Source: Nitrosovibrio tenuis (GTDB lineage: Bacteria; Pseudomonadota; Gammaproteobacteria; Burkholderiales; Nitrosomonadaceae). Taken from it: a stretch of 64,000 bases of DNA. Both the position numbers and the translations under genes were made by a program. Under the pieces are notes generated by a model that saw only the letters and a list, made by a program, of their open reading frames with translations, did not search any database and was not told the DNA's origin. This document shows, piece by piece, positions 19,421 through 60,517 of the stretch. Every line of letters starts with the position of its first letter. Positions within the stretch are counted from its first letter, which is position 1. The stretch lies in assembly GCF_900109785.1 (NCBI RefSeq), contig NZ_FOBH01000007.1, positions 1 through 64,000 on the forward strand. Reading direction: 5' to 3'.

Positions 19421-21271
19421 GTGACGCCCGATACCCCGCCCAATCGCCTCGATCGGCCTGTCGACGAGTCATACGACCACGTACTGGGCCCTTCCGATGC
19501 CGAGATCACCCTGGTCGAGTACGGCAGCTATGCGGACCCCGCCTCTCGCCTTGCTCACGAGCGCGTCGCCCAGATGCGCAGTCGGTTCGGTAACCGCTTG
19601 CGCTATGTATTTCGTCACCGCCCCTTGACGGGAAGCCTCATCGCCCGCCAGGCGGCCGAGCGGGTGGAATCCGTTGGCGACCCAGCGCGCTTCTGGAACA
19701 TGCATGTCTCGCTGATGGCCCTGTCTGACAAGCTGACCGAGGATGACCTGCATACCATGGCCGCCAGTCTCGATGATGAGCAAGGCCCCGGGCGAAATGA
19801 CCTGCTCTTGCAGGCACAAGCCCGTGTGGATGCAGACGTGGAAAGCGCGGCAGCGAGCGGCGTCATCATCACGCCGACGTTCTTCATCAACAACCGTCGC
19901 TACGATGGCCCGTGGGATGCCAATTCCCTTTCAGAGGCAATGCTGGGCTCTCTCGGTCATGTGGTTCACGCGGCTGCACTGGACTTCGCCAAATGGGCGC
20001 CTTCGACCGGCATCCTGCTGCTGCTGGCAACGGGGATAGCAATAGTACTAAGCAATTCCCCGCTGGGCCCGGATTTTAATGACTTCTGGGAACAGCGCCT
20101 CGGTCTTGCTTTCGGCGCTACGGAATTCAATCTCTCACTTCGGCAGTGGATAAATGACGGGTTGTTGGTAATCTTCTTCCTGGTCGTCGGCTTGGAGATC
20201 AAGCGGGAATTCACGGTCGGCCATCTCTCCAACCGACAGGCCGCGATGTTGCCGATTTTTGCGGCCATTGGCGGTATGGTAGTACCCGTCCTTTTGTACC
20301 TGATACTGGTGCCCGACGGTTCCACAGCTGAATCTGAAGGCGCATGGTCGCGTGGCTGGGGGGTCCCCATGGCAACCGATACCGCTTTTGCGATCGCATT
20401 GATAGTCATGATGGGCAGACGGGTTCCGATCGAGCTGCGCGTCTTTCTCACTGCGGCTGCGATTGTGGACGACATCGGGGCCATTATTGTAGTGGCAGTG
20501 TTCTATTCGGGCGAGCTCCATGCGGTCTATCTAGCCGCAGCCGCAGCGATTATCGCGCTGCTGGCGCTGCTTAATAAAGGGGGCGTATACCGCGCTTCTC
20601 CTTATGTTGCTCTCGGAGGGGCGCTATGGGTTTGTGTTTATGCAAGTGGAATACATGCAACTCTATCGGGGATTATCCTGGCCCTCTTCATTCCGACCCG
20701 CCCGCCGCCTAACCTCCGGGCGCTGATGATGCAAGCTGATGCGATACTCACGGCTGAAACACAGCGCGGCAGGGAAGTCCTGCGTTATGGGCCATCCGAG
20801 CCTGCGCTGGAGGCGCTGGACGCCATCCATGACCGGCTGGAATCGCCGGCCGATCGCATGCTGCGCCATGTTGCGCCGAGATCGAGCTATGTTGTATTGC
20901 CGTTATTCGCTCTGGCTAATGCGGGTGTGGAAGTAAGCACGCATGTGTTCAGCGGCCACGCGCCGCTGATTATCGGTACCACCGTGGCCTTGGCGATCGG
21001 CAAACCGCTCGGGTTCATCGCCGCAACGGCCGCCGCGGTCCGGCTGAGTATTGCGACCAAGCCGTATGGGTATTCCTGGCGCCAATTGGCCGGGGCCGGC
21101 GCATTGGCCGGAATCGGCTTCACCATGTCGCTTTTCATAGCCAGCGAGGCATTTGCCATAGAGGCCGATTTTGCCGCGGTCAAAATCGCCATCTTCGCAG
21201 GCTCGATTTTGTCGGCCGTTGTCGGCGTCGCAATATTGTGGAACGCTCGCCGGGATTCAGATTCACATTAA
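19421..21271 (+). CDS. nhaA: DsbA-like domain fused to Na+/H+ antiporter NhaA
   Basis: A 616-residue fusion. Residues 1-180 resemble the DsbA/thioredoxin fold used as disulfide isomerase in FrnE/DSBA families (SDAEITLVEYGSYADPAS, then helical insert, then GVIITPTFFINNRRYDG with the cis-Pro loop). The usual CxxC is replaced by YADP, so redox catalysis is not expected. From about residue 188 the protein is a complete NhaA: LLLLATGIAIVLSNSP in TM1, VGLEIKREF, the ATD320 element in TM4 and the essential pair D350/D351 in VDDIGAI, matching D163/D164 of E. coli. It exchanges Na+ for protons at the inner membrane. The GTG start lacks a strong ribosome site. The fusion itself is known in several bacteria. 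Confidence 0.9.
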   Translation: MTPDTPPNRLDRPVDESYDHVLGPSDAEITLVEYGSYADPASRLAHERVAQMRSRFGNRLRYVFRHRPLTGSLIARQAAERVESVGDPARFWNMHVSLMALSDKLTEDDLHTMAASLDDEQGPGRNDLLLQAQARVDADVESAAASGVIITPTFFINNRRYDGPWDANSLSEAMLGSLGHVVHAAALDFAKWAPSTGILLLLATGIAIVLSNSPLGPDFNDFWEQRLGLAFGATEFNLSLRQWINDGLLVIFFLVVGLEIKREFTVGHLSNRQAAMLPIFAAIGGMVVPVLLYLILVPDGSTAESEGAWSRGWGVPMATDTAFAIALIVMMGRRVPIELRVFLTAAAIVDDIGAIIVVAVFYSGELHAVYLAAAAAIIALLALLNKGGVYRASPYVALGGALWVCVYASGIHATLSGIILALFIPTRPPPNLRALMMQADAILTAETQRGREVLRYGPSEPALEALDAIHDRLESPADRMLRHVAPRSSYVVLPLFALANAGVEVSTHVFSGHAPLIIGTTVALAIGKPLGFIAATAAAVRLSIATKPYGYSWRQLAGAGALAGIGFTMSLFIASEAFAIEADFAAVKIAIFAGSILSAVVGVAILWNARRDSDSH

Positions 21272-21436: not shown

Positions 21437-21862
21437 ATGACAACAAAGAACGGATGGGCGGTTTGGAAAGGCGGCATCAAAGATGGCGGTGGCACCATTT
21501 CCACTGAAACCGGTGTGCTCAACGAAGCGCCTTACGGTTTCAAATCGAGATTCGAAAATGGCAAGGGCACAAACCCGGAAGAGCTTATCGCTGCTGCACA
21601 CGCTGCCTGCTTCTCCATGGCGCTTTCATTAATGCTGGGAGAAGCGGGGATGACGCCCGAGCGGATCGAAACTCATGCCGGTGTTACGCTTGACAAGGTA
21701 GGAGATGGATTTGAAATTACCCACAGCCATTTGAATGTGGTAGCAAAAATACCGGGGGCCGACAAGGCAAAGTTCGAAGAGATCGCAAACAAAGCGAAAT
21801 CCGGGTGCCCGGTATCCAAGCTTCTAAAGGCGGAGATCACAATGGATGCGCGACTGGAATAA
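21437..21862 (+). CDS. OsmC-family organic hydroperoxide reductase
   Basis: A 141-residue peroxiredoxin-like enzyme of the OsmC/Ohr superfamily. It is preceded by AAGGAAGGAG. The two redox cysteines are present: C58 in AAHAACFSMAL and C124 in SGCPVSKLL, which reduce fatty-acid or organic hydroperoxides through a disulfide cycle. The short N-terminal strand region with GTNPEELIAAAHA agrees with the OsmC rather than the Ohr branch. It is monocistronic by appearance, with a structured element directly downstream. Confidence 0.93.
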   Translation: MTTKNGWAVWKGGIKDGGGTISTETGVLNEAPYGFKSRFENGKGTNPEELIAAAHAACFSMALSLMLGEAGMTPERIETHAGVTLDKVGDGFEITHSHLNVVAKIPGADKAKFEEIANKAKSGCPVSKLLKAEITMDARLE

Positions 21863-21873
21863 ACTTTCAAGCA

Positions 21874-22006
21874 CAAGAAAAAGCCCGGAGCAGGATCACT
21901 GCTGCCGGGCTGAGGCGCCAGGTACACTGAGGAAACATTGGTTGTTTCCCCAATTTCATCTTACACGCTTCTCGAGCCTTGCCAATTGGACTAAAGTACA
22001 GTCCGG
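21874..22006 (-). ncRNA. candidate small RNA or repeat element, copy A
   Basis: Read on the minus strand, this 133-bp stretch begins with CCGGACTGTACTTTAGTCCA and ends in a GC-rich hairpin followed by TTTTTCTTG. A related stretch at 56760-56949 has the same left hairpin, the same right end (19 of 22 bases identical over ATTGGACT.AAGTACA..CCGG) and an internal block TAAGAT...GGGGAA.CAA in the same order. The neighbouring genes are on the plus strand, so the minus-strand terminator has no known gene to end. A small RNA or non-autonomous repeat is inferred; no promoter is certain. Confidence 0.45.
21878..21910 (-). terminator. Rho-independent terminator (minus strand)
   Basis: Stem GCCCGG (21883-21888) with CCGGGC (21905-21910), an inner stem GCAG (21890-21893) with CTGC (21899-21902), loop GATCA. 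On the minus strand the hairpin is followed by TTTTTCTTG. On the plus strand there is no T-run after it, so it is a poor terminator for osmC. Confidence 0.65.
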
Positions 22007-22131
22007 GTAACGGTGACACATATTAAGCTGTTCCTTGCCGGGTTGCTTCCGGGATCATCATCCCCACTTACTCATCCTCTCCAGCTCGACGCCGGGTCTG
22101 CCGGGAGGTTTTCCCTGTTTCTTCCCCGACC

Positions 22132-23166
22132 ATGACACACCCTCCACTCATGAGACTCGCTCTGGCAACCTGCTTCTGCATCTGGGGCAGTTGGGGAACA
22201 GCCGCTTTTGCCGAGCCAAGCGAGTCTGGAGAAAGAAAAGAGAAAAACCGAGAGACGCAGAGAGAACTGGCGATTATAGACCGGTACAATGTTCCGATCG
22301 CCGAACTGTCGGGGCTTGCTATCGGGCGTACCGTTGAGGACAGAAGAGAGGAGGCTGGCGCGGTTGGCATTAGCCTCTATGCCATCGGGGACGCGAGCTA
22401 TGATATTGCAAACCTCCGCATCAACAGCTCATCCGGGAAAATCACCCTGAGTGTGGATGATGCCGCTGCGGTTCTAGGCAAGCGCACCGCAAGCGCCTCC
22501 CAATGGGAAGCAATCGCGACAGATAGCCTGGACACGATTTGCATGCTGAGCGAAACCCGGAGTGAAGTCTCCTGCCTCGACCGCAATCTGAGGAACGACC
22601 TGGGAACTTTCAAACTCGATGTTTCGAGCATAAAGCGACTCGACCGCGTTTGGCAAGATCGCCCCAACTCGCGCGGTGAGGGAATGATACTCATGAAGAA
22701 AGGACATGTCCTAATCCTGAAAGAGAAACAGCCATCCATGCTGATCGAGTTCGGTCCGGAGGGAGACTCTCCCCTCGGCTATGGACCGGATACATTTCTT
22801 GAGCATGGCGAGGCGTTTATCATCCCGCAATCCAGGCATTGGGTCGCACTGAAGACATGGGAATTTTCAGGTCACCTTGCAGCACTCGCGAGGGACGCCA
22901 GCGAAATAACGCTTGGCCCGGATGGGCGCGTGTATTTGCTATCACAGGAAAGCTCGACGCTGATTCGCCTGGAAAGAACCCTGAAACCCCACGAAGACGT
23001 GGTTTCTGTGGATCACGACACATACTGGAAGCTTCCCGCCGGAATCGAAAAAGCGGAAGGCCTGGTAATTGATAGCACGATGCACCCCTGGATCGGAATT
23101 GATATCAAGCAAAAGGACAAGCTCAACCTTTTCCGCTTGTCTCCTGTCGATCCGGCGGCGCAATAA
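22132..23166 (+). CDS. secreted hypothetical protein, possibly beta-propeller
   Basis: A 344-residue protein with a cleavable signal peptide (hydrophobic core ATCFCIWGSWGTAAFAEP, cleavage near residue 28), so periplasmic or exported. The mature sequence is mainly beta, with repeated strand pairs such as GPDGRVYLLSQESSTLIRLE and GIEKAEGLVIDSTMHPWIGID that recall blades of NHL, SdiA-regulated or phytase-like propellers. Two cysteines (in TICMLSE and VSCLDRN) might form a disulfide. I do not recognise a precise family and assign no activity. The alternative start is the ATG at 22150. Confidence 0.6.
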   Translation: MTHPPLMRLALATCFCIWGSWGTAAFAEPSESGERKEKNRETQRELAIIDRYNVPIAELSGLAIGRTVEDRREEAGAVGISLYAIGDASYDIANLRINSSSGKITLSVDDAAAVLGKRTASASQWEAIATDSLDTICMLSETRSEVSCLDRNLRNDLGTFKLDVSSIKRLDRVWQDRPNSRGEGMILMKKGHVLILKEKQPSMLIEFGPEGDSPLGYGPDTFLEHGEAFIIPQSRHWVALKTWEFSGHLAALARDASEITLGPDGRVYLLSQESSTLIRLERTLKPHEDVVSVDHDTYWKLPAGIEKAEGLVIDSTMHPWIGIDIKQKDKLNLFRLSPVDPAAQ

Positions 23167-52706: not shown

Positions 52707-54854
52707 ATGACCTCTTCGCATACATGGAATTTTTTCCGCGCAGGCGGGTTCGACCAGGTGCAAATCGATAATGGTGCGGATTTGCTCGCGCTGAAAGAAC
52801 TGGATCAGAAACTTTGGGTTGCGCTGAGCTGTCCGACGCGTGGCATTGAATTCGATACCCATACACTCGATTTGATCGACCAGGACCGGGATGCGCACGT
52901 TCATGCGAATGAAATACTCGGTGCCATTGCCTGGGCGGGCCGTCTGCTGAAAAATCCGGATCTGCTGGTAAACGGTTCGGATCACCTGGCTCTGGCCGAT
53001 ATCGACGATAGTACCGAAGAAGGCCAGCATGTGCTGGCTTCGGCCCAGTACATCCTGAAAAGCCTGGGCAAATCCCATGCGGCAGAGATTTCCCTTGCGG
53101 ACATGGCCGATATCGACAAGTTTGTCGCTGGTCTGGAATTCAACGGGGATGGCGTGATTCATCCCAGCCAGGTTGGGGACGCAAGCCTGCGCGCAACAAT
53201 TGAAGACATCATCAAGTGTCGAGGCTCAGTCTTGGATGCGGGTGGAGAAGCAGGCATCAATCAGGAAATCAGCGATGCTTTTTTCTCGGAGGTCGCAGCC
53301 TATTCGGATTGGCTCGTCAGAGGTGATGATGACGCACACGTTCAGTTTCTGGACGAGAAGACACAGGCAGCCGCCGATGCCTTTCACGCCGTTAAAGACA
53401 AGGTCAACGACTACTTCACCCGGTGCCAGCTTGCCGCCTATGATGCGCGCGCCGCTGCGCCATTAAGCCGCTCTACAGAGGACTATGAGCATATCGCGGC
53501 ACAAAACCTGTCGGCCCAAAATCCGGATATCGCCAATTTCCCTCTGGCAACGGTGGAACCCAATAAGCCGCTGCCATTGCATACCGGCATTAATCCCGCG
53601 TGGCAAAGCCAGATTGAGGCCCTGCGCGAACAAGTCATTGTGCCGGTATTCGGCGAGAAAGAAGTACTGCTTCCTTCGGAGTGGGTTGAGCTTCGAGCTA
53701 AATTTGCAGCGTTTGAAGCATGGCAGGCCGCCAAACCCGCCTGCAGCGCCGAAAAGCTTGGTAACGCGCGTCTGCGCGAGATAGCCCGAAGCGGGCATAA
53801 GGAGGCGATCGACCGCTTGATCAGCCAGGACAAGGCAGTGGAGAACGAAGTCAAGGCAATCCGGTCGGTGGAACAACTGCTGCGCTATCACCGCGACTTG
53901 TTCAAACTGGTCAATAATTTTGTATCGTTCCGCAGCTTTTATACTCGAAGGGACAAAGCGCTGTTTCAGCTTGGAACGCTGTACCTGGATAGCCGCAGTT
54001 GTGACCTGTGCGTCAGGGTTGATGACATCGCCAAACATGCCGAGTTCGCCAATATGAGTGGCCTGTATCTGGCCTATTGCGAATGCGTACGCAAGGGCGG
54101 CGCCGAAAAGATGAGCATTGCCGCCGCCTTTACCGATGGCGATTCTGATTTCCTTATGGTTGGCCGTAATGGCATTTTCTACGACCGCAAAGGCCAGGAT
54201 TGGGATGCCACTATCGTGCGCATTCTCGACCATCCGATCAGCATCCGCCAGGCGTTTTGGTCACCCTACAAAAAACTGATCAAGTTCATCAACGAGCAAC
54301 TGGAGAAGTTGGCCGCTGCGCGCGCCGCAGCGGCGGATGAGAAACTGCTCAAGGCGGCTGCGGAGAGCGTCAAGCCGGTAGCGGAAGGAGCGCCTCCGCC
54401 GACGGCGCCCAAGCCGCCTTTCGACGTGGGCAAGTTTGCAGGGATTTTCGCAGCAATCGGGTTGGCGCTCGGGGCTATCGGCGGTGTTTTTGCTTCAATT
54501 GTCAGCGGACTACTGGGATTGAGAATCTGGGAAATACCTCTGGCAATAATCGGATTGATGCTGCTCATTTCCGGACCCGCCATGATCGTTGCCTGGTTCA
54601 AGCTGAAGAAACGAACCCTCGGTCCCATACTGGATGCAAACGGCTGGGCAATCAATGCGCGAGCCCGGATAAATATCCCATTTGGGAAGACCTTGACCCA
54701 AGTGGCATATTTGCCCGAAGGCTCGCATCGCTCGCAGGTCGATCCGTATGCGGACCAAAAACCGGTATGGCCCTATTATGTGTTGGTTGCGGGCATCGTT
54801 GCGGCATTGATCGCCCTGTGGTACATGGGAATTTTTGGGGAACGCCCAAGCTGA
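52707..54854 (+). CDS. membrane protein with an EF-hand calcium motif, function unknown
   Basis: A 715-residue protein. A canonical EF-hand loop DQDRDAHVHANE starts at D58 (Asp at positions 1, 3 and 5 and Glu at 12), and a second, degenerate one (FNGDGVIHPSQ) lies near residue 145. The region 1-540 is soluble, mainly helical, with a DSRSCDLCVRVDD cysteine pair (near 435). A charged coiled coil and a proline-rich linker (540-570) precede two membrane helices (about 572-600 and 603-628), a short domain and a final helix (690-711). Genes of this layout occur as hypotheticals; I cannot name a family. The aldolase gene follows after 27 bp. Confidence 0.75.
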   Translation: MTSSHTWNFFRAGGFDQVQIDNGADLLALKELDQKLWVALSCPTRGIEFDTHTLDLIDQDRDAHVHANEILGAIAWAGRLLKNPDLLVNGSDHLALADIDDSTEEGQHVLASAQYILKSLGKSHAAEISLADMADIDKFVAGLEFNGDGVIHPSQVGDASLRATIEDIIKCRGSVLDAGGEAGINQEISDAFFSEVAAYSDWLVRGDDDAHVQFLDEKTQAAADAFHAVKDKVNDYFTRCQLAAYDARAAAPLSRSTEDYEHIAAQNLSAQNPDIANFPLATVEPNKPLPLHTGINPAWQSQIEALREQVIVPVFGEKEVLLPSEWVELRAKFAAFEAWQAAKPACSAEKLGNARLREIARSGHKEAIDRLISQDKAVENEVKAIRSVEQLLRYHRDLFKLVNNFVSFRSFYTRRDKALFQLGTLYLDSRSCDLCVRVDDIAKHAEFANMSGLYLAYCECVRKGGAEKMSIAAAFTDGDSDFLMVGRNGIFYDRKGQDWDATIVRILDHPISIRQAFWSPYKKLIKFINEQLEKLAAARAAAADEKLLKAAAESVKPVAEGAPPPTAPKPPFDVGKFAGIFAAIGLALGAIGGVFASIVSGLLGLRIWEIPLAIIGLMLLISGPAMIVAWFKLKKRTLGPILDANGWAINARARINIPFGKTLTQVAYLPEGSHRSQVDPYADQKPVWPYYVLVAGIVAALIALWYMGIFGERPS

Positions 54855-55920: not shown

Positions 55921-56319
55921 TCAACCTGAATCCGACAGTTGAACAGGGTGGAGTGTATGTTTTTGAAGTGGAGCGCAAGGCGAGATGTTAAAAATAATGA
56001 CGGAAGCCCAGCCGTATTGCTCACGCACCAGCAATGTCACGGTTTCAGCAAAAGTCGAAAATGTCGTCAGCCCGCCGATAAGCCCGTGATAGCGAACAGC
56101 CGCTTCCGGCGAAAGCACAGTATTGTGATGAAAATACTCGACCGCCATACCGACGAGATAACCTCCCGCCAGATTATCCATTAATGTCCAGAGGAAGAGT
56201 CGGAATACGGGATTCAAGGTCATGCCGAACCACCAGCGCAGCCATGTACCCAACGCTGCGCCTGCCGCAACGGCCGTTATTGCCGTACCGGAGAGCAATA
56301 TGGAAGGCCTATATCTCAA
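55921..56319 (-). CDS. crcB: fluoride channel CrcB/FluC, C-terminally truncated
   Basis: The first 103 residues or so are a recognisable Fluc subunit: AAGAALGTWLRWWFGM (TM1), the WTLMDNLAGGYLVG segment with the conserved Asn of TM2, and GLIGGLTTFSTFAETVTLLV (TM3, F-box phenylalanines). After YGWASVIIFN the family would continue into TM4 (a glycine-rich AGSLLLT-type helix of about 25 residues). Here the sequence turns into SPCAPLQKHTLHPVQLSDSG and stops, with no membrane helix in any frame nearby. The channel is therefore probably not functional as read. The start is uncertain: only TTG codons are available at 56319 or 56298, and its 5' end overlaps the divergent DUF190 gene. Confidence 0.75.
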   Translation of the reverse strand: MRYRPSILLSGTAITAVAAGAALGTWLRWWFGMTLNPVFRLFLWTLMDNLAGGYLVGMAVEYFHHNTVLSPEAAVRYHGLIGGLTTFSTFAETVTLLVREQYGWASVIIFNISPCAPLQKHTLHPVQLSDSG

Positions 56320-56662
56320 GTTTTATGTAAGCGAATTCCGCGAACATAATGGAATCCTGTTATTCGAATGGCTCCTGGAGCGTGCCAAGAAATGCGGCTT
56401 TCACGGCGGCACGGCAATGCGTGCGGTAGCCGGTTTTGGACGACACGGCATATTGCATGAGGAAACTTTTCTTGAACTCGCGGCGGACCTGCCTGTGGAG
56501 GTCAGCTTTGTCCTGAGCAAGGACGAGGCAAAACTGTTCCTCGACTTATTGCAGGCGGAAAATATTGACCTGTTTTACGTACAATTCCCGGTCGAATACG
56601 GATTTTTGCCCGCCAACCATATTGACGACTGGCGCGCAGGCGAAAAACCGCCCAGCCTGTAG
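56300..56662 (+). CDS. DUF190 protein (PII-like, crcB-associated)
   Basis: A 120-residue protein from the ATG at 56300 (GGAG at 56290-56293 upstream). It opens MEGLYLKFYVSEFREHNG, typical of DUF190, and continues with WLLERAKKCGFHGGTAMRAVAGFG and VEVSFVLSKDEAKLFLDLL. DUF190 proteins adopt a PII-like trimer fold and commonly accompany crcB on the same strand. Here they are divergent with overlapping 5' ends, an unusual geometry. A small-ligand or ion-sensing role is inferred; I see no riboswitch sequence in the shared start region. Confidence 0.85.
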   Translation: MEGLYLKFYVSEFREHNGILLFEWLLERAKKCGFHGGTAMRAVAGFGRHGILHEETFLELAADLPVEVSFVLSKDEAKLFLDLLQAENIDLFYVQFPVEYGFLPANHIDDWRAGEKPPSL

Positions 56663-56759: not shown

Positions 56760-56949
56760 CAAGAAAAAGCCCGGCGCAGTAACCTGCTGCCGGGCCGTGG
56801 CGTTTACTTCAACTACATTTACTTCAACTACAAATGGGGAAGCTGCGCTTCGTTCCCTCTTACTTCCTATCGCTACTTCCTCATTGCTTCCCCGGATACA
56901 ATCTTATCAATTCCGATTGCAGTGTCTATTGGACTGAAGTACAACCCGG
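56760..56949 (-). ncRNA. candidate small RNA or repeat element, copy B
   Basis: On the minus strand the stretch begins with CCGGGTTGTACTTCAGTCCA and ends in the same hairpin and T-run as the copy at 21874-22006, including the shared internal TAAGAT and GGGGAAxCAA words. It is 57 bp longer than that copy, partly through a perfect tandem repeat TTTACTTCAACTACA (56803-56817 and 56818-56832). Neighbouring genes are on the plus strand. It is either a second locus of one small RNA family or a decayed repeat. Confidence 0.45.
56764..56795 (-). terminator. Rho-independent terminator (minus strand)
   Basis: Stem GCCCGG (56769-56774) with CCGGGC (56790-56795), inner stem GCAG (56776-56779) with CTGC (56784-56787), followed on the minus strand by TTTTTCTTG. 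The stem order and the TG bulge are the same as in the hairpin at 21878-21910. Confidence 0.6.
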
Positions 56950-57151: not shown

Positions 57152-60100
57152 ATGGCGGACCAACGCGACGATAAATCCAGATTTCCGCTAACAGGGCTTT
57201 TTGCGTTGCTGGCGATGATAAGCGGTTTTCTCTTCTATGAAGGGATTTCGCTAAAAACTTCGCGGCCCATCAACAAGGAACAGGCGAGCAGCATCTTCCT
57301 GAAAAAGGGGATTGTACAGTCGCGCCTGTGGCAGGACCCTTTTGAAGCCGTGAATGCACACCGGCTGCTGGAGGAAAAACTGACCGGGGAGCCGGATGAA
57401 AAAAACGACCGCCATACACTCGACAAACTGGTTGAGGTTCTGGATCAGTCGGAAATTTCCAATCTTCGCGTACTACCTGTATTCGTGGATGGAAGTCCAT
57501 ACGTCAATGGAGGTGAGTCCAGGCTTAACGACCGATATGCAGTGGTTTCGGCCCTCGGTGCGACAGACTATGTGCCCGAGTCGGGCGAATACATCCGCTT
57601 TTTCAAATGGAACCGCGACAAGAAAAACAATATAAATACAAAAACCGGAACGAGAATCCGAACGGGAGCGGATGAAATCGAAACGCTCATACCGGCGGAA
57701 TTGTATTTTCCTAATGCGAAATTCCGCGATGAACCGTATGGAAAACATGTGCTGGTCCTATGGCTCAAGGAACAGGATGCGGGCCCAGAACCGCTCATGT
57801 TTCTGGATGATCTTCTCGAATCTCTTGAAAAGGCCTTCGATAAGCACGGATCAAAAATAACATTTACTTATGATGTGCTGGGGCCGCGCAGCTCCGCCAC
57901 CCTGAGCGCCATGCTGAAGGAATTGCAATCGGTCCAGCCTGACGCTCCAACTTCACCGTTCAACCTTTTGAAGAAGACCCGGTTCTTCTCTCCCTACGCA
58001 ACGGCGGAGGACACCTTTTTACTGGACTATTCTCCTAATGCACCCCAGCCGTCCGCATCCCACCGAACCGGGAAACAATTGAAAGAGAGCGGAAAAGAGC
58101 CGGGAAAAAATAACGAACCGGAGTTCACGAAGGAGACCGCGAAAGAGATCGAAAAAGCGACCGTGAATGGGTTGCTGAGTAAAGCACAAATCAAGCTGAT
58201 CAGGACGATTAATACCGACGCCGTGCTGGCGGAGCAACTCCTCCGAGAGCTGAAACGCCGCCAGGTGGATCTACAGCCTTGTGCAGACAAACATTGCAAT
58301 CCACAGGTCGCTCTGATTTCGGAATGGGATACGCTTTACGGACGCGCTTTGCCGCGAACCTTTGCTGCGGTGGCGATGAATAACGGCTCAGGGGAAACCG
58401 GCCCCGCGCTAGAGACCGAAATCAATAAATTGCGCAGGGATGCTTGGCCGGGCTGGATTTACCGGCATTCATACCTGGCGGGACTCGACGGCGAATTGCC
58501 GGCACGGGGAAGCGATAAGGGCAGTGATAAGGAAAAAGACGGAATTCCCGCCGCGGGGAAAGCATGGTACGGAGGCCTCCCGCAAGGCCCCGAACAGAGC
58601 ACAGCTCAAAGACCTGAAGGCCGCGGCCAGCTAGACTATGTCATCAGGCTGGCGGCAGCCCTGAAGCAAGAGGAAACCAGGAATGGGGAGGAATTCAAGG
58701 CGATCGGGGTACTCGGCAGCGATGTGTATGACAAGCTTCTGATTTTGCAGGCGCTACGCCGTACGTTTCCAAGGGCGGTCTTCTTTACCACCGATTTGAA
58801 TGCCAGACTGGCCTACCCCGCCGAATGGCATTGGACACACAATCTCATCATTGCTTCGCACTTCGGACTGGAGCTTCAACCGGATCTTCAAACACCGATT
58901 CCTCCATTTCGGGACAGCTACCAGACTTCGCTGTTCTATTCCGCTTTATGGGCGTTGGAATACTTTATTTCTGCAGACAACTCGAGTTGTCCGGATTGTT
59001 TCCAGTTGAGGAAAAATAAAGAAGATAAGGGGAATAAGGGGGCGAAGAAATTTTCCGCTGACGCGGAACCAAGATTGTACGAGGTCGGGCGCCACGGCGC
59101 TTTCGATATCAGCACCGATCTCCATCCACCGCAGCCTGATTATGCAAGCATCCACCCTCCGCGCAGGGATTTGGAGACTTATTTCGACACGGAGCGCAGC
59201 CTTAAATGGATTGTGGGGGCGATGGCCACGGCTGCCATACTCGTCCTGGGCATTATGCTGATCAGCAATACGGCGGCGGCCGCCATGCTCAAACTTGCTT
59301 CCCTCAAATGGTTCTGGATCACCCTTATTGTCGCAGGTGCGGCAATTTATGGCGCAATTACATGGGCAATGCGGTCGCTGCATGAGGTGGCAAAAAATGA
59401 GCCATTGGTACTGACCGAAGGAATCAGCGCATGGCCAACAGCGGCAATCGGCGCCTTCGTGCTGCTTATGAGCCTGGTCTTTCTGTGGTATTCCTGGAGA
59501 AGGTTAAAAAATAACGAGATTGCTTTGGCACATGAATTCGGTCTTGAACGACCCGATATGAAAGGAGACGACCCTGAAGGGCAAAGTCGTGAAAGCCAGG
59601 GCACCACGCCGGGCGGTAGACTGCCAGACGAACCCCACCGTGCGCTACCGTTCAATGTATTCGGCCGGGCGGCTCGATATTTGATGGGGTTAGAGACTTG
59701 GCATCAGCAAGCGCCTGGCCACTTCAGTGCTACGCATCTCTGGTGTGAATACACGACATTGGGTGATCTGAAAAACTTTGCCGCGCGTTGTCTGCCGCAG
59801 GTGGCGATCGCTTTATGCTTCACATGGCTCATGATGACATTATTCGGTTTTCCCAACATCCCATGCCGGGGCCAGGCCTGCTTCACAATAAATGATTATG
59901 TCATAATACTGAGCCTGGCCGCGATGATGCTCCTTATATTTTATGTGATAGACGTCACCCTGCTGTGTCGGAGGTGGGTCAATTGCATTGCCGTGAACAA
60001 AATCGATTGGCCCGATGACACTTTGATAAAAATCGCACGGGAACAAGGCGTGAGTAAAGAAAACCTTGATGAATGGATGGGGATTGAATTGATCGCCGAG

Positions 60101-60517
60101 CGAACAACAGTCATCGGCAATTTTATTTATTTTCCGTTCATTATCATGTTTCTTCTGGGAATTTCGCGCCATTCCTATCTCGACAATTGGGACTTTCCCG
60201 CTGCGTTGGTCATAATCTTTACGCTTAACGCGATACTCATTGTCGGCAACGCTCTGGCATTGCGGCGATCCGCCGAGATGGCCAAACGCGAAGCCATCAA
60301 GCGCCTGGAAAGCAGGCTCACCCAGCTATCCAGTCAAACTTCCGGGGAAATAAAGCAGAGGCAACAGATCGAGTGGGCGATTCAAGCAATAAAAAACAAT
60401 CAGAAAGGCGCTTTCCTCCCTTTTACCCAGCATCCAATATTTGGTGCGGCAATTGCTCTGCCGTCCGGCGGGTATGGCCTCGTGCTCTTGCTCGAATATC
60501 TGGCCACGAGTTTCTGA
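57152..60517 (+). CDS. large membrane protein of unknown function (1121 residues)
   Basis: AAAAAGG precedes the ATG. A single membrane helix near residues 14-31 (LTGLFALLAMISGFLFYEG) exports a soluble region reaching to about 685. Within it, GVLGSDVYDKLLILQALRR and FFTTDLNARLAYPAEWHWTHNLIIAS look like the alternating strand-helix pattern of periplasmic-binding or receiver-type Rossmann folds, and a low-complexity Lys/Glu-rich part lies near 310-350. From about 685 there are roughly eight further hydrophobic segments with a hydrophilic loop (about 790-850, RPDMKGDDPEGQSRESQ). The size and layout resemble ligand-sensing membrane receptors, but I do not recognise the family and claim no activity. 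Confidence 0.7.
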   Translation: MADQRDDKSRFPLTGLFALLAMISGFLFYEGISLKTSRPINKEQASSIFLKKGIVQSRLWQDPFEAVNAHRLLEEKLTGEPDEKNDRHTLDKLVEVLDQSEISNLRVLPVFVDGSPYVNGGESRLNDRYAVVSALGATDYVPESGEYIRFFKWNRDKKNNINTKTGTRIRTGADEIETLIPAELYFPNAKFRDEPYGKHVLVLWLKEQDAGPEPLMFLDDLLESLEKAFDKHGSKITFTYDVLGPRSSATLSAMLKELQSVQPDAPTSPFNLLKKTRFFSPYATAEDTFLLDYSPNAPQPSASHRTGKQLKESGKEPGKNNEPEFTKETAKEIEKATVNGLLSKAQIKLIRTINTDAVLAEQLLRELKRRQVDLQPCADKHCNPQVALISEWDTLYGRALPRTFAAVAMNNGSGETGPALETEINKLRRDAWPGWIYRHSYLAGLDGELPARGSDKGSDKEKDGIPAAGKAWYGGLPQGPEQSTAQRPEGRGQLDYVIRLAAALKQEETRNGEEFKAIGVLGSDVYDKLLILQALRRTFPRAVFFTTDLNARLAYPAEWHWTHNLIIASHFGLELQPDLQTPIPPFRDSYQTSLFYSALWALEYFISADNSSCPDCFQLRKNKEDKGNKGAKKFSADAEPRLYEVGRHGAFDISTDLHPPQPDYASIHPPRRDLETYFDTERSLKWIVGAMATAAILVLGIMLISNTAAAAMLKLASLKWFWITLIVAGAAIYGAITWAMRSLHEVAKNEPLVLTEGISAWPTAAIGAFVLLMSLVFLWYSWRRLKNNEIALAHEFGLERPDMKGDDPEGQSRESQGTTPGGRLPDEPHRALPFNVFGRAARYLMGLETWHQQAPGHFSATHLWCEYTTLGDLKNFAARCLPQVAIALCFTWLMMTLFGFPNIPCRGQACFTINDYVIILSLAAMMLLIFYVIDVTLLCRRWVNCIAVNKIDWPDDTLIKIAREQGVSKENLDEWMGIELIAERTTVIGNFIYFPFIIMFLLGISRHSYLDNWDFPAALVIIFTLNAILIVGNALALRRSAEMAKREAIKRLESRLTQLSSQTSGEIKQRQQIEWAIQAIKNNQKGAFLPFTQHPIFGAAIALPSGGYGLVLLLEYLATSF

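Follow-up and report, generated by a model that had tools for sequence, protein, structure and literature searches.

A promoter box shared with PEP-CTERM genes accompanies a probable multicopy small-RNA gene family in Nitrosospira and Nitrosovibrio

Two unlinked intergenic sites in a 64,000-nt stretch of the Nitrosovibrio tenuis genome (the window) carry diverged versions of one element, copies A and B, and each includes a terminator that serves no annotated gene, which raises the question of what these elements are. A sequence-only reading had described in both a minus-strand GC hairpin with TTTTTCTTG behind it, TAAGAT and then a GGGGAAxCAA block, and a distal end identical at 19 of 22 bases, with all flanking genes on the plus strand, and each of these points was borne out on inspection (the internal block is TAAGATGAAATTGGGGAAACAA in A and TAAGATTGTATCCGGGGAAGCAA in B). 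Of the two identities it had offered, the multicopy small RNA has stood, on the evidence of promoter, terminator, covariation and genus-wide copies, while the mobile repeat has given way before the conserved flanks. We favour, with some reserve, the explanation that A and B are two members of a multicopy small-RNA gene family that belongs to a matrix regulon and acts by anti-ribosome-binding-site pairing. The parts of this explanation differ in strength: going by sequence, the copies are very probably small-RNA genes and they probably belong to a matrix regulon, whereas the odds that they act on Shine-Dalgarno sequences seem to us about even. The family, which resides in ammonia-oxidising bacteria, is apparently uncatalogued.

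Read along the minus strand, A and B present the same order of parts, namely a dyad, a -35 element, 16 nt, TAAGAT, a hairpin starting with GGGGAA and a terminator that ends in TTTTTCTTG (Table 1). The dyad has the form TTGKACT-NN-AGTMCAA, from which copy A deviates in the first bases. In sequence terms each copy is a complete, predicted promoter-small RNA-terminator gene, in which the shared distal end is the putative dyad plus flanking bases, adjoining the -35 element, and TAAGAT corresponds to the predicted -10 element. A sigma-70-type promoter with the dyad near -42.5 would drive minus-strand transcription and the gene's own intrinsic terminator would end it, giving transcripts with a predicted length of about 70 to 150 nt. 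In copy A the 5' hairpin sits at the predicted transcript start, and the CU-rich segment forms its 3' arm. In 21700-22300 a simple consensus scan picked out a single promoter-like site, that of copy A, and the bulged terminator of this copy was absent from the output of that scan. Used as a query, copy A retrieves copy B from its own genome (3.1 Mb) at E 2.1e-7.

Table 1. Positions of the predicted parts of the copies and of the genes beside them (window coordinates, except for the third copy)
Feature	Position	Strand	Basis
Copy A, neighbour: OsmC gene	21437-21862	plus	
Copy A, neighbour: SdiA-regulated-like gene	22132-23166	plus	
Copy A, 16-bp dyad (putative activator box) CTGTACTTTAGTCCAA	21986..22001	minus	sequence; genus-wide box conservation; fixed -10 spacing; centre about -42.5
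Copy A, -35 TTGGCA	21980..21985	minus	promoter scan; G-C-A conserved at these positions
Copy A, -10 TAAGAT	21958..21963	minus	promoter scan; family-wide -10 offset
Copy A, 5' hairpin GGGGAAAC-loop-GTTTCCTC	21929..21951	minus	folding; two-sided changes in relatives
Copy A, intrinsic terminator hairpin and T-run	21878..21911	minus	sequence; folding-based terminator search
Copy B, neighbour: DUF190 gene	56222-56662	plus	
Copy B, neighbour: ORF	57152-60517	plus	
Copy B, 16-bp dyad TTGTACTTCAGTCCAA	56929..56944	minus	sequence; box searches
Copy B, -35 TAGACA	56923..56928	minus	sequence; family-wide geometry
Copy B, -10 TAAGAT	56901..56906	minus	sequence; family-wide geometry
Copy B, long 5' hairpin GGGGAAGC...GCTTCCCC	56836..56893	minus	folding; same stem in orthologues L074, L076
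Copy B, intrinsic terminator hairpin and T-run	56764..56795	minus	sequence; folding-based terminator search
Third full copy, same genome	G000:C19:325513-325639	minus	

Further copies, whose absence would have told against the sequence-only reading, are present throughout the genus, including a third full copy in the same genome. They were scored with model R1, which spans box and transcript and was built on 27 of the 32 sRNA-type copies, leaving out copy B itself (L064) together with L074, L076, L079 and L090; it gives copy A 118, copy B 70 and the third copy 59 bits. Under strict filters R1 found matches in 23/23 Nitrosospira/Nitrosovibrio genomes and in none of 14 genomes from other genera of the family, and the matches in 4 of 24 genomes of the order were borderline (E 0.003-0.009) and are taken as chance terminators. 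The sRNA-type set comprises 32 of the 38 box sites with a strict terminator; four sites were excluded on a terminator end more than 195 nt past the box start (L073, L117, L122, L146) and two by judgement, L107 with its PEP-CTERM ORF and L138, the latter probably wrongly because R1 scores it at 60.6 bits. Loci L099, L116 and L148 lack a strict terminator call, yet a terminator is visible there by eye and R1 matches them.

The genes beside the copies are likewise retained. When the window's flanking proteins were compared with the copy-bearing loci by tblastn, OsmC adjoined a copy in 12 genomes (G000, G001, G005, G006, G010, G011, G014, G016, G017, G019, G020, G021), and DUF190 and/or the product of ORF 57152 did so in 10 (G000, G003, G006, G007, G008, G009, G010, G013, G019, G020), with the 57152 product alone, without DUF190, found in the stretch in G009 and G019. 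Flanks conserved to this extent indicate fixed genes rather than a mobile repeat. Across these orthologous loci the hairpin sequence turns over, while the architecture and the promoter are retained.

The dyad itself could be followed well beyond the small-RNA copies. Allowing at most one mismatch, the 19-nt box occurs at 106 sites in 23/23 same-genus genomes, and the reversed pattern at none; 99 of these sites were classified, as distinct sequences after merging of identical 70-mers and exclusion of sites less than 120 nt from the end of a stretch. The motif TANNNT is found precisely 36 nt downstream of the box's first G at all 32 sRNA-type sites and at 46 of the 67 others, compared with 0.9% at random offsets. 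A -10 element at so fixed an offset places the centre of the dyad near -42.5, the usual position for a class II activator of the LuxR/NarL type. In 38 genomes outside the genus, the box at two mismatches gave 4 matches in 3 genomes, against a control of 3. Exact matches to GTACTTYAGTCCAATAGGC in named genomes numbered 19, comprising 15 in Nitrosospira/Nitrosovibrio, three in other betaproteobacterial assemblies and one in Algoriphagus, where arithmetic gives about 4 expected by chance in 257 Gb.

What follows the box at its other sites suggests a surface or matrix programme. Behind 20 of the 99 box sites lies a same-strand ORF with a tail of PEP-CTERM or VPLPA type, and none was found on 118 strands of these loci that lack the box, as counted by a strict regular expression with control strands in loci that partly overlap; the 20 sites correspond to 18 genes, two boxes standing ahead of one gene at L017 and again at L080. 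All eight proteins tested with HMMs exceed the curated cut-off, seven with PF07589 and TIGR02595 and that of L121 with TIGR03370; six of them come from the 20-site set and two from the N. tenuis genome itself (L065, L003), where the box has 2 mismatches. That genome holds 32 PEP-CTERM matches over the cut-off, of which 2 are linked to a box, each with 2 mismatches, so that the association is limited to a minority so far. A c-di-GMP-I riboswitch over the gathering score lies behind the box in 3 of 14 hand-picked loci (L073, L114, L117); in these the box is about 60 nt upstream of the riboswitch, and an ORF with a subtilase-like GTSFSSPV, recognised by eye, comes next. Such an arrangement may place an activator and c-di-GMP control in series. 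In three other assemblies (L161, Parasulfuritortus; L166, Burkholderiaceae; L168, Rhodocyclaceae) the exact box stands just upstream of the start of a LapA-type adhesin-like ORF, the retention module NF033682 being recognised by HMM in L161 and by eye in L166 and L168. Eight loci of relatives (L105, L106, L120, L136, L139, L143, L144, L152) also have a conserved protein, about 127 aa long (MKAKPKRE...ITAYVFEESE), behind the box, and so does the N. tenuis genome behind a box with 3 mismatches (L067, G000:C12:198724); the protein of L105 has no match in Pfam or NCBIfam.

A DNA signal common to PEP-CTERM genes has been described before, as a motif pair, by Haft et al. in 2006, with N. multiformis among the pooled genomes (PMC1569441). 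In the published description that signal is a 17-nt motif ending in TTTACA, followed after about 63 nt by a -24/-12 sigma-54 site (PMC1569441), whereas the box described here is a 16-bp dyad directly adjoining a -35/-10 promoter. The PrsR/sigma-54 PEP-CTERM regulon was accordingly set apart, as far as that description goes, given the fixed -35/-10 at the box instead, and the same text concludes that more motifs were still to be found (PMC1569441). EpsA (TIGR03020) was considered as the activator and rejected, since its presence does not track the box: it exceeds the cut-off in 23/23 genomes of the genus and in 6 of 38 others, and those 6 lack the box, while none of 4 outgroup genomes with a box match has EpsA over the cut-off (G063 has a split 125-bit partial match, and assemblies may be incomplete). 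As a separate observation, one relative (G011, L181) has a small-RNA gene copy at 2621955-2622082 (C1) about 220 nt upstream of an EpsA-family regulator gene at 2622303-2623082, on the same strand.

Folding and alignment were used to examine the RNA. The 32 sRNA-type copies, together with two others left out later, mostly fold with a 5' hairpin joined by a linker to a terminator. The sequence-only reading had looked to compensatory base changes, and these are present in the 5' hairpin in unfitted and fitted alignments alike: 3 of the 8 pairs of the 5' helix show two-sided changes in the unfitted alignment A4 (copy A and five relatives), and all 8 do so in the model-fitted alignment A8, whose 27 distinct rows come from 29 matches among 36 loci given to model R2 and which, being fitted to the structure, leans towards it. 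Over the whole structure, A8 contains 51 cells with two-sided changes against 20 in shuffles, a level reached in 0 of 500 shuffles, and the signal drops once pairing partners are shifted by between 1 and 3 columns; in this alignment the 5' part of long B-type copies is misplaced and their real 5' hairpin lies outside its coverage. Stability in single sequences is modest in the 5' domain (mean z -0.90; p<0.05 in 7/32), and that of copy B does not exceed shuffles (z +0.15). A MAFFT alignment of 26 sequences (A3) yielded the terminator alone with RNAalifold because the 5' hairpins are out of register. The osmC-locus alignment A7 was also out of register and is uncounted, and the hairpins there were read one by one; among 14 osmC-locus or A-like copies folded singly, no 5' hairpin forms in L081 (G005) and that of L095 (G021) is weak.

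The primary sequence of the 5' domain points to a possible mode of action. CCUCC, the anti-Shine-Dalgarno core, occurs in the 5' domain of 13/32 transcripts and in 11 of 23 sequence clusters, the corresponding cluster counts in 1000 shuffles having a mean of 2.1 and a maximum of 7. Copies A and B are without CCUCC and carry UUUCCUC and CUUCCCC, respectively, within a paired arm, and in many other copies folding places the CU-rich stretch in or near the apical loop. The most likely way for these RNAs to act, we infer, is by pairing with ribosome-binding sites. The RNAs would be made when a putative activator switches on the surface or matrix programme, their CU-rich segment would pair with G-rich ribosome-binding sites and lower the translation of selected mRNAs, and separate copies may have separate targets.

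Similar properties have been described for RF02278, the Betaproteobacteria toxic small RNA (Burkholderia ncS03, ncS05, ncS27, ncS62). As published, these are short two-hairpin RNAs in which the second hairpin is a terminator often starting with GCCCG, they bear a CU-rich stretch complementary to ribosome-binding sites, they have several homologues dispersed genome-wide, and three of the four B. cenocepacia copies have a common upstream motif (PMC5688073). The same paper reports that the CU-rich stretches of the B. cenocepacia double-hairpin RNAs are predicted to cover ribosome-binding sites, and that ncS27 slows growth on overexpression and speeds it on silencing (PMC5688073); RF02278 RNAs inhibit growth when expressed in E. 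coli, as described in two reports (PMC4603805, PMC5688073). Folding of our 32 copies likewise gives two hairpins with the second an intrinsic terminator, some of the 5' hairpins being unstable. Membership of RF02278 was nevertheless rejected, with copy A at 15.9 bits under the full model and the best of 20 further loci at 27.1 (L080), against a gathering score of 50. Members of RF02278 start with a near-fixed TGTCTCCTCC, unlike the copies here, and a box with up to 4 mismatches lies within 75 nt upstream of 0/30 RF02278 loci and of 32/32 copies of our family, the latter by selection. RF02278 had no match at E<=0.01 in the N. tenuis genome; of 200 genomes sampled from the order, 138 have one at that level, and in 74 it reaches the cut-off. 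The copies would work like RF02278 but are not filed as its members.

Other small RNAs offer looser parallels. In sX13 of Xanthomonas (RF02232), C-rich loops repress mRNAs bearing G-rich motifs near their start codons (PMC3771888), and L137 (25.8 bits) and L017 (22.0 bits) match that model below threshold; sX13 differs in having three stem-loops and forms a separate family, and its gathering score of 50 was unreached. The Qrr sRNAs of Vibrio and the NmsR sRNAs of Neisseria are also described as small homologous sets, and the NmsRs carry CU-rich stretches complementary to ribosome-binding sites (PMC5688073). Rfam 15 at the gathering score gave no match across the whole window, and in 20 loci of relatives the matches over gathering were an SRP RNA and a tRNA, in L018 only and away from the element.

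Three other accounts of the same elements were weighed. If the GGA-bearing hairpins sequestered a CsrA/RsmA-type repressor, as Rsm/Csr sRNAs do, the three GGA triplets in the 5' loop of copy B and the GGGGA with which many copies begin would be explained, and copy B may act by such titration. In copy A and in most of the short copies, however, no loop contains GGA, the feature conserved among divergent copies is the CU-rich one, and the window is without an Rfam match at the gathering score, all of which make protein titration an unlikely account of the family. The position of several copies raises a different idea, that they are transcribed leaders acting in cis, each with a terminator, and would attenuate the downstream gene rather than be free-standing small RNAs: a same-strand ORF lies within a few hundred bases in several relatives, the third N. 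tenuis copy precedes a PEP-CTERM gene, the ORF of which starts about 370 nt past the box start, and riboswitch leaders are preceded by the same box. Against this, the first gene that transcription from A or B would meet lies on the opposite strand in both cases, in an arrangement that is old, and we think attenuation rather improbable.

A non-autonomous MITE- or REP-like mobile repeat with a terminator would fit the several diverged intergenic copies per genome, as well as genomes G015 and G022, in which an A-like copy occurs with OsmC absent within the 3-kb stretch. The flanks conserved at both loci, in 12 and 10 genomes, with insertion sites that do not vary, the constraint on promoter geometry and base pairing, and the presence of the same box before ordinary protein genes all argue strongly in the other direction, making a mobile origin very improbable. 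The small-RNA gene family thus remains the preferred reading.

A wider picture may be drawn, tentatively and as somewhat less probable than its rejection, in which a single dyad-reading activator switches on PEP-CTERM proteins, c-di-GMP-riboswitch-led genes and fast-diverging, fixed-locus small-RNA genes across the genus, the small RNAs serving as a post-transcriptional arm that redirects translation through anti-Shine-Dalgarno segments during matrix building. The same box stands before genes for LapA-type adhesins in three assemblies of other betaproteobacteria, and on this view the activator would be a biofilm regulator that is older and has gone unrecognised. Among the open-access papers listed, judged by title and abstract opening, none appeared to concern sRNAs of Nitrosospira; open-access papers yielded none joining PEP-CTERM, Nitrosospira, promoter and motif, and the matches listed for Nitrosospira quorum sensing and LuxR contained nothing on this box. 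The analysis adds a structured, multicopy small-RNA family without an Rfam 15 match at the gathering score, which the shared box and promoter would tie to a PEP-CTERM surface-protein and c-di-GMP programme in soil nitrifiers. It also provides a PEP-CTERM cis-regulatory site unlike the published sigma-54 one and sharp enough to make the activator findable, and the orthologous loci, where the hairpin is remodelled and architecture and promoter are fixed, are a good place to study change in the pairing segment of a small RNA.

Several features of the surrounding loci were recorded along the way. At the DUF190 locus of one relative (L008/L035, G013:C10:954172-955116), two small-RNA gene copies lie about 0.8 kb apart, a possible local duplication. 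The ORF conserved beside copy B (1121 aa) and that at 52707-54854 (715 aa) have no Pfam match at E<=0.001, and a single ORF at 19421-21271 of the window joins thioredoxin-like (PF13462) and Na+/H+ antiporter (PF06965) domains and in many relatives stands ahead of osmC. Seven places in another genome of the order (G050) match 18 nt of the copy B terminator stem exactly, perhaps a repeated terminator of that genome.
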